Shown: piece after piece, positions 2,269 through 33,976 of the stretch | How positions within the stretch are numbered: position 1 is the first letter of the stretch | Layout of the letters: each line of letters begins with the position of its first letter | Assembly (NCBI GenBank): GCA_021772985.1 | Contig: JAJFKX010000025.1 | Location: 1 to 64,000, forward strand | Length of the DNA: 64,000 nucleotides | Reading direction: 5' to 3' | DNA from: Gammaproteobacteria bacterium | GTDB taxonomy: Bacteria; Pseudomonadota; Gammaproteobacteria; Xanthomonadales; Wenzhouxiangellaceae | Program-made: the position numbers and the translations under genes | Notes under the pieces: model-generated | Databases searched by the model: none | Told to the model about the DNA's origin: nothing | The model's input: the letters and a program-made list of their open reading frames with translations, nothing else

Positions 2269-3494
2269 GTGAGTTCAATTGATCAACGCAACACTTTATA
2301 TTCACATAGTAATATGAGGTGTCGACAATGTCATATCGAACTAGGATTATTTATTCTGCTCATCAAAAAGAGTTAATGTGGGATCGGTGGAAGAAAGGAA
2401 GTACATTACACGATATAGCGCGACTATTTAATCGTGGGCATTCTTCGGTTCAACGAATACTTCAAGAAGCTGGTGGCTTCCGCCCCAGGACAAGGAAGCG
2501 TTCAATTCTGTCACTAACACTTGATGAAAGAGAAACGATCTCGAGAGGTATAGCGATGGATTTATCAATGCGAACAATTGCTACAAAGTTAGGTCGGTCA
2601 CCCTCGACAGTAAGCCGAGAAATTAGGCGCAATGGAGGGTATGCTAGTTATCGAGCGGTTGCCGCCGATAAAGCAGCGTGGCGAAGAGCTCTTCGACCTA
2701 AACCGTGTAAGCTTGCTGGGCAATTGAATCTGAAAAACCTGATTGCCCGAAAGTTACAATGCCATTGGTCTCCTGAGCAAATAGCAGGCTGGTTAAAGCG
2801 TCAATACCCGAACGACGAACATTATCACGTGTCACACGAAACGATTTATAAGAGTTTATTTATTCAAACCAGAGGCGTTCTTAAAAAGGAGCTTCTAGCT
2901 TGTTTGAGAAGCCGACGAGTTATGCGGCGCTCTCGTTATTCAAGTCTGAAAAGGAAAGGACTCGGCACTATTGTAGATGCGGTGTCAATCAGTGAACGGC
3001 CGGCCTCTGTCGAGGATCGTGCTGTTCCAGGGCACTGGGAAGGTGACTTAATTGCTGGATCAAATAATAGCTATATCGCCACATTAGTAGAACGGCATTC
3101 GCGCTACGTGATGCTAGCTAAAGTTAAGAATCGTCGCACTGATACAATCATCGACGCATTGATCAAACAATCACAAAAGCTACCAACTGAACTTTACAAA
3201 TCGCTAACTTGGGATAGAGGCTCAGAACTTGCTGGCCACAAGACTTTTACTCTGGCGACAGATATTGATGTGTACTTCTGTGATCCACACAGCCCTTGGC
3301 AACGTGGTTCCAATGAGAATACAAACAGGCTTCTGAGGCAATATTTCCCAAAAGGGACAGATTTATCGATACACTCACAGTCTAAGCTGAGTGCAGTGGC
3401 TCGACAATTAAATGAGCGGCCTCGTAAAACGTTAGAATACGAGACGCCAGCTGGACGATTTAACGCATGTGTTGCGTCGATCGGTTGAACTCAC
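2269..3494 (+). mobile_element. IS30-family insertion sequence
   Basis: A 1.2-kb element bounded by terminal inverted repeats of about 26 bp. The left end (2269-2294) begins GTGAGTTCAATTGATC and the right end (3469-3494), read inward, begins GTGAGTTCAACCGATC. They differ at only a few positions and share the ACGCAACA core common in IS30 ends. It holds one full-length transposase gene whose last codons lie in the right inverted repeat. I see no clear target-site duplication; IS30 duplications are only 2-3 bp and hard to judge. Confidence 0.88.
2328..3488 (+). CDS. IS30 family transposase
   Basis: The 386-residue DDE transposase appears intact. Two N-terminal helix-turn-helix regions (about residues 10-50 and 65-110) would bind the inverted repeats. 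A central linker with H-W-S-P-E-Q-I-A-G-W is typical of IS30. The catalytic core supplies Asp in H-W-E-G-D-L-I (about 239), Asp in T-W-D-R-G (about 296) and Glu in G-S-N-E-N-T-N (about 330), followed by the family's R-Q-Y-F-P-K-G-T-D motif. ATG 2328 is taken as the start because GAGG at 2314-2317 is well placed; GTG 2319 is too close to it. Confidence 0.95.
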   Translation: MSYRTRIIYSAHQKELMWDRWKKGSTLHDIARLFNRGHSSVQRILQEAGGFRPRTRKRSILSLTLDERETISRGIAMDLSMRTIATKLGRSPSTVSREIRRNGGYASYRAVAADKAAWRRALRPKPCKLAGQLNLKNLIARKLQCHWSPEQIAGWLKRQYPNDEHYHVSHETIYKSLFIQTRGVLKKELLACLRSRRVMRRSRYSSLKRKGLGTIVDAVSISERPASVEDRAVPGHWEGDLIAGSNNSYIATLVERHSRYVMLAKVKNRRTDTIIDALIKQSQKLPTELYKSLTWDRGSELAGHKTFTLATDIDVYFCDPHSPWQRGSNENTNRLLRQYFPKGTDLSIHSQSKLSAVARQLNERPRKTLEYETPAGRFNACVASIG

Positions 3495-5619: not shown

Positions 5620-5982
5620 ATGATCAAATTTATTATGTGTATAACGCGGCACCAAGCAATGTCCCGCGAACAATTCAAAAATTACTGGGTGAATAAACAT
5701 GGCCCATTCTTCATGGAAAATGCTGGGGCAATGAGGGCTAAAAAATATGTGCAATCGCTTACGGTAGACACCCCTCTAAACGAAGCATTGAGGAGTTCTA
5801 GAGGAATGCTGCACGAATTTGATGGCGTCGCCGAGGTATGGTTTGAATCGGAACAAGACCTGATGGAAGGAATGAGTTCGCCGGAGGGCCAGAAACTAGC
5901 TGCTGCGTTGCTGGAAGATGAGGGGAATTTTATCGACCACTCAAAATCTTCCGCATTCATCGTTACGGAGCATCAGCTTTAA
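5620..5982 (+). CDS. EthD domain protein
   Basis: The 120-residue single-domain protein starts M-I-K-F-I-M-C-I-T-R and has the EthD motif F-K-N-Y-W-x-N-K-H-G-P at residues 20-30. EthD proteins are dimeric ferredoxin-like alpha/beta barrels, originally found beside a cytochrome P450 for ether degradation and otherwise of unknown catalytic role. ACAGGAG precedes the start at a good distance. Likely co-transcribed with the SnoaL-like gene upstream; EthD and SnoaL proteins often occur together in small-molecule modification clusters. Confidence 0.82.
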   Translation: MIKFIMCITRHQAMSREQFKNYWVNKHGPFFMENAGAMRAKKYVQSLTVDTPLNEALRSSRGMLHEFDGVAEVWFESEQDLMEGMSSPEGQKLAAALLEDEGNFIDHSKSSAFIVTEHQL

Positions 5983-9447: not shown

Positions 9448-9748
9448 GACTGACCTTCATTATGTAGTGTAAATAATCGATTACGATGGTAGCTCAACAA
9501 CTGTGCTCAAAGTACGAAGTAACGTTGAGTAGCGTAATTTAGGCGGTAAGAAACAAGCACCCAAGAGTACAGAAACTTTTAATCTGTATAATCGATTTGA
9601 CCCCATTTCCTTCGACGTCATTTGAGCTGCTTGATCATCCAACAGTGCCAGGGACTATAAAACCGGCCTTCGCAAACTGATAGAAACAACTCGAGATGAA
9701 GCCTGGTCAGTAAGCCAAATAATTTTGTGACAGGATGGGTATGCAATT
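9448..9748. other. 300-bp intergenic region, no gene seen
   Basis: Divergent spacer between the NHL-TPR gene and the FISUMP pseudogene. It should hold promoters for both, but I cannot assign -35/-10 boxes with confidence. CAGGATGGG at 9732-9740 is a possible Shine-Dalgarno for the plus-strand gene. Confidence 0.4.
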
Positions 9749-10351
9749 ATGAAAACAATCAGCAGGGTGATGTCATGGGTCCTTTTGGGGCTTCTGGTTC
9801 CAGTGGCAGGGCTAGCTCCAGCCACGGAAATTACCGACCTGCGTGATGGCAAATTGTACCCTACTGTCACGATTGGAAGTCAGACATGGCTGGCGGAGAA
9901 TCTAAGCTTCGACACCGGACAGGAAAGCCGTTGTCTAGCAGGCTTGCAAGCCAACTGTGAGCAATATGGACGGCTGTACACCTGGCTGGCAGCAATGCGA
10001 GCTTGCCCGGCCGGCTGGCGGCTCGCCTCAGAGGCCGATTGGCAGGCCCTTGAACGATCCCTTGGGATGACGGAAGAACAAGTGCGTAGCCGGGAATATC
10101 GGGGGAGGGACGAAGGGACACAGCTTCGCGATGGTGGCACTTCCGGCTTCAGCATACTCCTGTCCGGCTACATGCGGCCCGACGGAACCCCGCGACGGGC
10201 GCGTGAGCGAGCTGCGTTTTGGACGGCGACAGAGCACCAGCCGGGAGCTACGTCGTGACACCGTGACTTAAGCCAAGACCCACGAATCTATCGATCACCA
10301 GTGGAACAGGGTTACTATCTCAGCGTCCGATGCATACTGGCCGCCAACTAG
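9749..10351 (+). pseudogene. secreted FISUMP-domain protein interrupted by in-frame TGA
   Basis: The open part (9749-10258, 169 residues) has a signal peptide and a Fibrobacter succinogenes major paralogous (FISUMP) domain: D-x-R-D-G-x-x-Y-P-T-V-x-I-G-x-Q-T-W-x-A-E-N-L, then C-P-A-G-W-R-L and A-F-W-T-A-T-E. A TGA at 10256-10258 stops it, yet the same frame continues to TAG 10349-10351. The continuation encodes H-R-D-L-S-Q-D-P-R-I-Y-R and then Y-Y-L-S-V-R-C-I, the expected end of the domain. A Trp is expected at the stop position (W-x-R motif), so one TGG-to-TGA change explains the break. Confidence 0.8.
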
Positions 10352-10539
10352 TTCGGCTACGCTAGCGCCTACCAGCGTTGGTTATTGACTCGGGTTACCT
10401 TAGTGGCGCATTAAAGAGCGTTATAACACCTGCAACACAACCACTTACACATAACAAGTACTTTGAAAACTTCACAACAGGCCGAATCCCTTTAATGCTG
10501 TATCTTTTTTATGGGCATATATACATATAGGAGGAAACT

Positions 10540-10896
10540 ATGAATGAAACAAATACCGGTTACATTCTTACCGAAATTTGGAATACCAAACCCTCTTAGC
10601 TGGCTCTTTCATCCGACCAGAGGAAACATTTCTTCGATGCTAAAGTTCATCCCTTTATCGGCGAAATGCTGGCTGCAGGGGCCGAAATACTGGGCTGCGC
10701 GATCAATGACAATGATAGCAGTGAGCGCATCGACTACCGCTATATGGCGGTGTGGAAAATACCCAGTAAGTCGTTCTCTGAGCAACTCGAATCAAGCACT
10801 AAGAAAATAGGTTTTCTTGACTATTTTGAGCAAGCAAATTTTAGCGGTCAGCTTATTCCGCCACCTGTCATGAACAATGACATGATTACACTGTAA
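10540..10896 (+). pseudogene. DUF6616-like protein gene interrupted by in-frame TAG at codon 20
   Basis: AGGAGG at 10529-10534 precedes ATG 10540. The frame reads M-N-E-T-N-T-G-Y-I-L-T-E-I-W-N-T-K-P-S, meets TAG at 10597-10599, then continues without another stop for 98 codons (L-A-L-S-S-D-Q-R-K-H-F-F-D-A and so on) to TAA 10894-10896. The Y-I-L-T-E-x-W-N-x-K-P-x-[W]-L-A-L pattern suggests the stop replaced a Trp (TGG). The full-length product would be about 118 residues, consistent with a small ferredoxin-like family; my family assignment is moderate. Internal ATG 10666 could give a C-terminal fragment only. Confidence 0.75.
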
Positions 10897-11019
10897 TAGT
10901 CCTGCTGACATTGGTATCAACTATTAAAAATAATCTACCGCAGACAATATATACCGTAACTGTCACCGGTGTTGTTGAGGCTGTCTTATCTCAAGATATG
11001 TAGCTGATCATCCGGCGTG

Positions 11020-11604
11020 TCAGGAATCAAAAAAGCAATTACTTAAGCTGGTTACAGCAGCTGTCACCGCATGCGGGAACAACCTATCACCGATAAACGC
11101 CTGATTCAGACTGAGCAATACCAATACCGTCATACGCGCAGCAACCACATCTCTGTGAGGGGCCGCCGACCTGGTGTTCCAGCATTGGATAAGTTGCTCC
11201 AGAAACAATTGATCCTGTTGCTGATGGGCCAATAAATAGTCTGCTGGAACCCGCCGTTTTATCGCCTGCAATTCAGCCTCGTGCCCCATTAGCTGGACCA
11301 GCGGGTCATTGCAGATAGCAGTAAACATCTTGCGCAAGCGGTTTGCAAATGCTTTGCGGGTCACTGTCCTGGCTTTCAAAATCGGTAAGCGAATCTCATT
11401 TTGTGTCTGCTCCAGTAACTCCATGAACAGCAGTTCTTTAGATGGGTAAAACTTATAGAAAGACCCCTTGGCGATGGCCGCTGCAGTGGTCAATTGCTCT
11501 ACACTGGTTTTTGCGACTCCGGCACCTGCAAACAAATGACGGGCAACATCACGTAATCGCTGGTTTATCTGAGTTTGTTCGTATTGGTCAAAAGCGCGTG
11601 GCAT
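11020..11604 (-). CDS. TetR-family transcriptional regulator
   Basis: The 194-residue protein has an N-terminal TetR helix-turn-helix (about residues 12-58: V-A-R-H-L-F-A-G-A-G-V-A-K-T-S-V-E-Q-L then I-A-K-G-S-F-Y-K-F-Y-P-S-K-E) and an all-helical ligand domain. It is divergent from the 11687-12514 membrane-protein genes, and a TGACTA/TAGTCA inverted repeat lies between them. It probably represses itself and those genes in response to a small lipophilic compound; the ligand is unknown. Confidence 0.9.
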   Translation of the reverse strand: MPRAFDQYEQTQINQRLRDVARHLFAGAGVAKTSVEQLTTAAAIAKGSFYKFYPSKELLFMELLEQTQNEIRLPILKARTVTRKAFANRLRKMFTAICNDPLVQLMGHEAELQAIKRRVPADYLLAHQQQDQLFLEQLIQCWNTRSAAPHRDVVAARMTVLVLLSLNQAFIGDRLFPHAVTAAVTSLSNCFFDS

Positions 11605-33554: not shown

Positions 33555-33976
33555 TTAAACCATGCCGCGTTGTGCCTCAAAGTATCTGATCATTCCTGCA
33601 TATGGACTGTCAGGCATTGCCCTCGATTTGATCAGTTGCAGATGCAAATCCTGAATCTCCGCAGGCACACTATCTGATCTGCTGATCGAGAGTTCAAGTA
33701 CTCGTTCTTTAGCATTTTGGGTTTCGACCTTTGCTCGAATCACGGCTAGCTCAGCTCCGTGTCTGACCACCCATATTGATGGATCTCCCAGCACTTCGGC
33801 GAGTGCATCGGAACCTGCCAGAACCAAAGCCAGGGAGCGCAATAAGGTGGATTTCCCAGTGCCGTTTTCACCTAGTATCACCGACTATTTTCGATTGTCC
33901 CACCCGGCAAGTCGAAATCAACAAACAGTCGTTCGGAACAGCGGACATTTTCGAGTTCGAGTGATTTAAGAAACAT
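33555..33976 (-). pseudogene. remnant of a RecF-like AAA ATPase
   Basis: From ATG 33976 one frame reads M-F-L-K-S-L-E-L-E-N-V-R-C and runs to D-L-P-G-G-T-I-E-N-S-R before a stop. A second frame continues with V-I-L-G-E-N-G-T-G-K-S-T-L-L, an intact Walker A loop, and ends after 108 codons. Intact relatives are several hundred residues with Walker B and a signature motif, all missing here. So the gene carries a frameshift near 33888 and has lost its C-terminal two thirds. No intact partner gene lies beside it. Confidence 0.78.

Follow-up and report, generated by a model that had tools for sequence, protein, structure and literature searches.

The DUF6616 (PF20321) gene at positions 10540..10896 (+) of the window, meaning the whole stretch of 64,000 nt that was analysed, is interrupted by an in-frame TAG at 10597..10599 (+), and the locus is quite probably a recently inactivated, non-essential gene. 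Just upstream, a Fib_succ_major (PF09603) gene is broken near its own 3' end, and both are most likely dispensable genes that have recently become pseudogenes or that carry polymorphic nonsense alleles. What we describe below thus looks like ordinary recent gene loss and not like an altered genetic code.

The architecture of the interrupted gene can be read directly from the sequence. A Shine-Dalgarno motif (AGGAGG, 10529..10534, +) and a 5-nt spacer precede the ATG at 10540, which is followed in one and the same frame by 19 codons, the TAG, 98 sense codons, and a terminal TAA (10894-10896), confirming the layout given in the first-pass annotation. When translated through the stop, the frame matches PF20321 over residues 9-117 (E 2.1e-29, 102.5 bits against a curated cut-off of 27), and even the part from Met43 onward matches the profile by itself (E 2.9e-18). 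Owing to these two matches, the open frame 3' of the TAG is beyond what chance would provide. With respect to family membership, the profile score lies above the curated cut-off, and the reading frame is not intact, as codon 20 is the TAG. No lesion besides this single TAG was seen in the gene: the 98 downstream codons are open and their conserved residues have been kept.

The interrupted residue is Trp in all 10 aligned homologues from named genomes (two rows being identical), and in the five closest ones it is found in the context PSW(L/I). A premature stop therefore stands where every aligned homologue has a sense codon, which is one of the marks of a nonsense pseudogene. The alignments strongly support the view that the TAG would have arisen from a Trp codon, and the proposed change from TGG to TAG is thereby well supported; orthologues lacking Trp at this position, named beforehand as evidence that would speak against it, were not found among the aligned sequences. 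The stop itself recurred neither in these homologues nor in two other hits among the genomes of the order. The locus resembles the rest of the DUF6616 family in that the profile match spans the stop and that a conserved Trp, DYRYMAVW, and other invariant residues are present; it differs in that its frame is broken at residue 20, whereas the frames of the homologues and of the two other hits are uninterrupted.

The protein that the repaired gene would encode is predicted to fold in the order strand-helix-strand-strand-helix-strand plus a C-terminal helix, which is ferredoxin-like (mean pLDDT 88.5, pTM 0.76). Among the Foldseek matches listed (E from 1.4e-4 upwards, query TM-scores of 0.47-0.74, 7-17% identity) are small ferredoxin-like dimeric proteins, chlorite dismutase and coproheme decarboxylase domains, and olivetolic acid cyclase, which are dimeric alpha-beta barrel proteins. 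A sequence search of PDB chains yielded no credible relative (the best hit, at E 0.0033, was a designed repeat protein), and our literature search found no paper naming DUF6616. The ORFs surrounding two of the homologues did not suggest a function either. A gene with an EthD domain, which has this kind of fold, is located at 5620-5982 (+), 5 kb before the start of DUF6616.

The neighbouring Fib_succ_major gene (9749..10351, +) contains an in-frame TGA at 10256..10258 (+), with 30 domain codons standing 3' of it. With this stop read through, the Pfam score goes up from 94.9 to 107.1 bits and the match becomes complete (1-186 of 187 profile positions), and these 30 codons hence belonged to the gene. 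The original residue is uncertain: of 12 alignments spanning the position, eight show Tyr in the relative, two Trp, one His, and one Gln (28-37% identity; eight of the 12 alignments come from one genome), and two further hits do not extend to it. The idea that two adjacent genes each lost a Trp codon is consequently well supported for the DUF6616 gene and not established for its neighbour. The distance of 250 bp originally quoted between them fits no measured one, since 188 bp separate the terminal stop of the Fib_succ_major gene from the ATG at 10540 and the distance from one internal stop to the other is 341 bp.

Both genes look like imports. Within the order, DUF6616 was found in three of 299 genomes, and within the family in two of 43 (own genome included in both counts); it was not found in the one other genome examined from the genus. 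Its closest relatives found, at 62-65% identity, come from an Acidobacteriota metagenome-assembled genome, Pseudonocardia, and Actinomycetospora. Judging from this distribution, and not from a tree, the DUF6616 gene was probably gained by horizontal transfer. Its G+C content of 44.1% is not unusual locally and not foreign here, which weakens the case for a recent import. Of 369 genomes of the class, six (this one among them) were found to have the Fib_succ_major domain, the copy at 9749-10351 (+) being the sole one in this genome, and the G+C content of that gene is 58.8%, versus 42.5-49.0% in nine nearby genes.

Bacterial pseudogenes stemming from failed horizontal transfer are a known pattern (PMC522871). 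The present case is similar in that an accessory gene, sparse among relatives, has been disabled by a stop; it is dissimilar in that there is a single lesion and in that import is deduced from distribution and not from a tree. With one lesion only, the DUF6616 gene would be at the very start of its decay.

How might these stops have arisen? A single G-to-A change probably hit the second Trp codon of a DUF6616 gene that was probably gained horizontally, from which at most a 19-residue peptide would now be made, presumably with loss of function. As no other lesion is visible, the stop is likely young or a polymorphism within the species. The TGA near the 3' end of the Fib_succ_major gene would have been acquired in a separate event, and if the two stops have a cause in common, it is most likely that selection on these accessory genes was relaxed, rather than any joint mechanism of mutation or translation. 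In most bacteria, transitions outnumber other kinds of mutation. In the DUF6616 gene (with the TAG counted as Trp), a stop would result from 10 transitions, six of them in Trp codons, and from 29 transversions; in the Fib_succ_major gene (with the TGA counted as Trp), it would result from 31 transitions, 14 of them in Trp codons, and from 52 transversions. Since transitions are commoner and many of the stop-making ones lie in Trp codons, a first lesion is likely to hit such a codon. A special mutation bias, which the first-pass annotation had put forward together with pseudogenisation and suppression of stops as a possible shared cause, is thus not needed. From that set, pseudogenisation fits best and suppression finds no support (see below). 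The notion of a shared cause is only half supported.

The open and conserved stretch of 98 codons after the TAG would be compatible with continued use of the gene as well. One or both genes might then be expressed at a reduced level by readthrough, the UGA being misread by the ordinary tRNA-Trp and the UAG by near-cognate tRNAs, an explanation that we regard as unlikely. It gains from the intact frame 3' of the TAG, although a young lesion predicts such a frame equally well, and from PMC7918605, which reports in-frame stops under some purifying selection across bacteria and suggests readthrough of persistent ones. The argument of that study rests on stops common to at least two species; our case is alike in that intact coding sequence continues past the stop and unlike in that no homologue or species with the same stop was found. 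The tRNA complement also speaks against it. The sole tRNA-Trp among the 40 tRNAs detected has the anticodon CCA, a 5-bp anticodon stem, A9, and G24. It therefore carries none of the three tRNA-Trp changes (a 4-bp anticodon stem, A9C, and G24A) that are linked to UGA readthrough in PMC13092985. Compared with the UGA-to-Trp decoding described there, the stop of the Fib_succ_major neighbour is indeed UGA, but the stem is an ordinary one of 5 bp and the DUF6616 stop is UAG.

Mistakes in assembly or base calling at either site or at both are given little probability as well. In favour of them, the assembly, with 62 contigs, is a draft; on the other hand, two independent single-base errors would have to have occurred 341 bp from each other, each of them creating an in-frame stop. 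A comparison with the one other genome examined from the genus likewise speaks against such errors. For this, 545 open reading frames (ORFs) from 786,359 bases of that genome were set against 957,177 of the 4,848,222 bases here (9,318 N). The alignments of 136 shared places contained 29 stops. Those near alignment ends were taken, as judged by eye, to be sequence beyond the true gene ends, and no interior stop (at least 30 columns from both alignment ends) was present in 131 of the 136 places, comprising 44,146 residues. The remaining five were dropped as shadows, each being antisense to a longer open frame of this genome. The single frameshift candidate consists of two long matches of low identity (27% and 23%) to one protein, and two tandem paralogues are the more likely reading of it. 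The count of similar stop events that had been called for thus came out without any credible interior stop in the sampled comparison with the genus mate. Because this comparison leans toward conserved, shared genes and undercounts decay among accessory ones, it says little on how often accessory genes decay.

It is also conceivable, if distinctly doubtful, that the stops are tolerated dampers of expression. Both imports would then be made in small amounts through near-cognate misreading of UGA and UAG, leaving each import nearly silent and recoverable by a single natural reversion, and the pair would serve as a reversible reserve of the population.

Genome-wide suppression of stops, or a code in which TAG or TGA means Trp, is hardly credible: in-frame stops in two adjoining genes would suit it, but TAG, TGA, and TAA terminate 31, 56, and 83, respectively, of 170 sampled long ORFs, the 554 query Trp positions in the 131 clean places face Trp 322 times and a stop never, and none of the 40 tRNAs detected has a suppressor anticodon (CTA, TCA, or TTA), with ARAGORN assigning sense anticodons to all of them in a search that returned 40 matches, left 61 of 211 first-look candidates unscored, and did not seek tRNA-Sec on its own. 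Codon reassignment in this genome is accordingly very unlikely.

A promoter and terminator scan of 9480-11020 gave one promoter-like and zero terminator-like sites, no more than in shuffled sequences; the window was also scanned for Rfam families and tRNAs, with no match, and the repeats around the two genes include no insertion footprint. A coding-potential scan across the stops (the TAG ranking 20th and the TGA 772nd among the stops scored, with N-containing codons in the training set) supports nothing, as codon bias is too weak here, and was used for the stop-codon count only. Elsewhere in the window, an intact transposase gene with HTH_38 and rve domains, which is probably IS30-like, is located 7 kb upstream of the pair (2319-3488, +). 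At 33555-33881 (-), a 108-residue ORF starts at a P-loop (AAA/ABC-like, with weak Pfam matches) and appears to be a piece of a larger ATPase gene.

Returning to the preferred reading of recent gene loss, the locus is to be annotated as one interrupted DUF6616 gene and not as a 76-residue ORF starting at Met43. Should strains that share the TAG turn out to be under purifying selection 3' of it, the two genes would offer a small case in which to test how nonsense codons are tolerated in imports.
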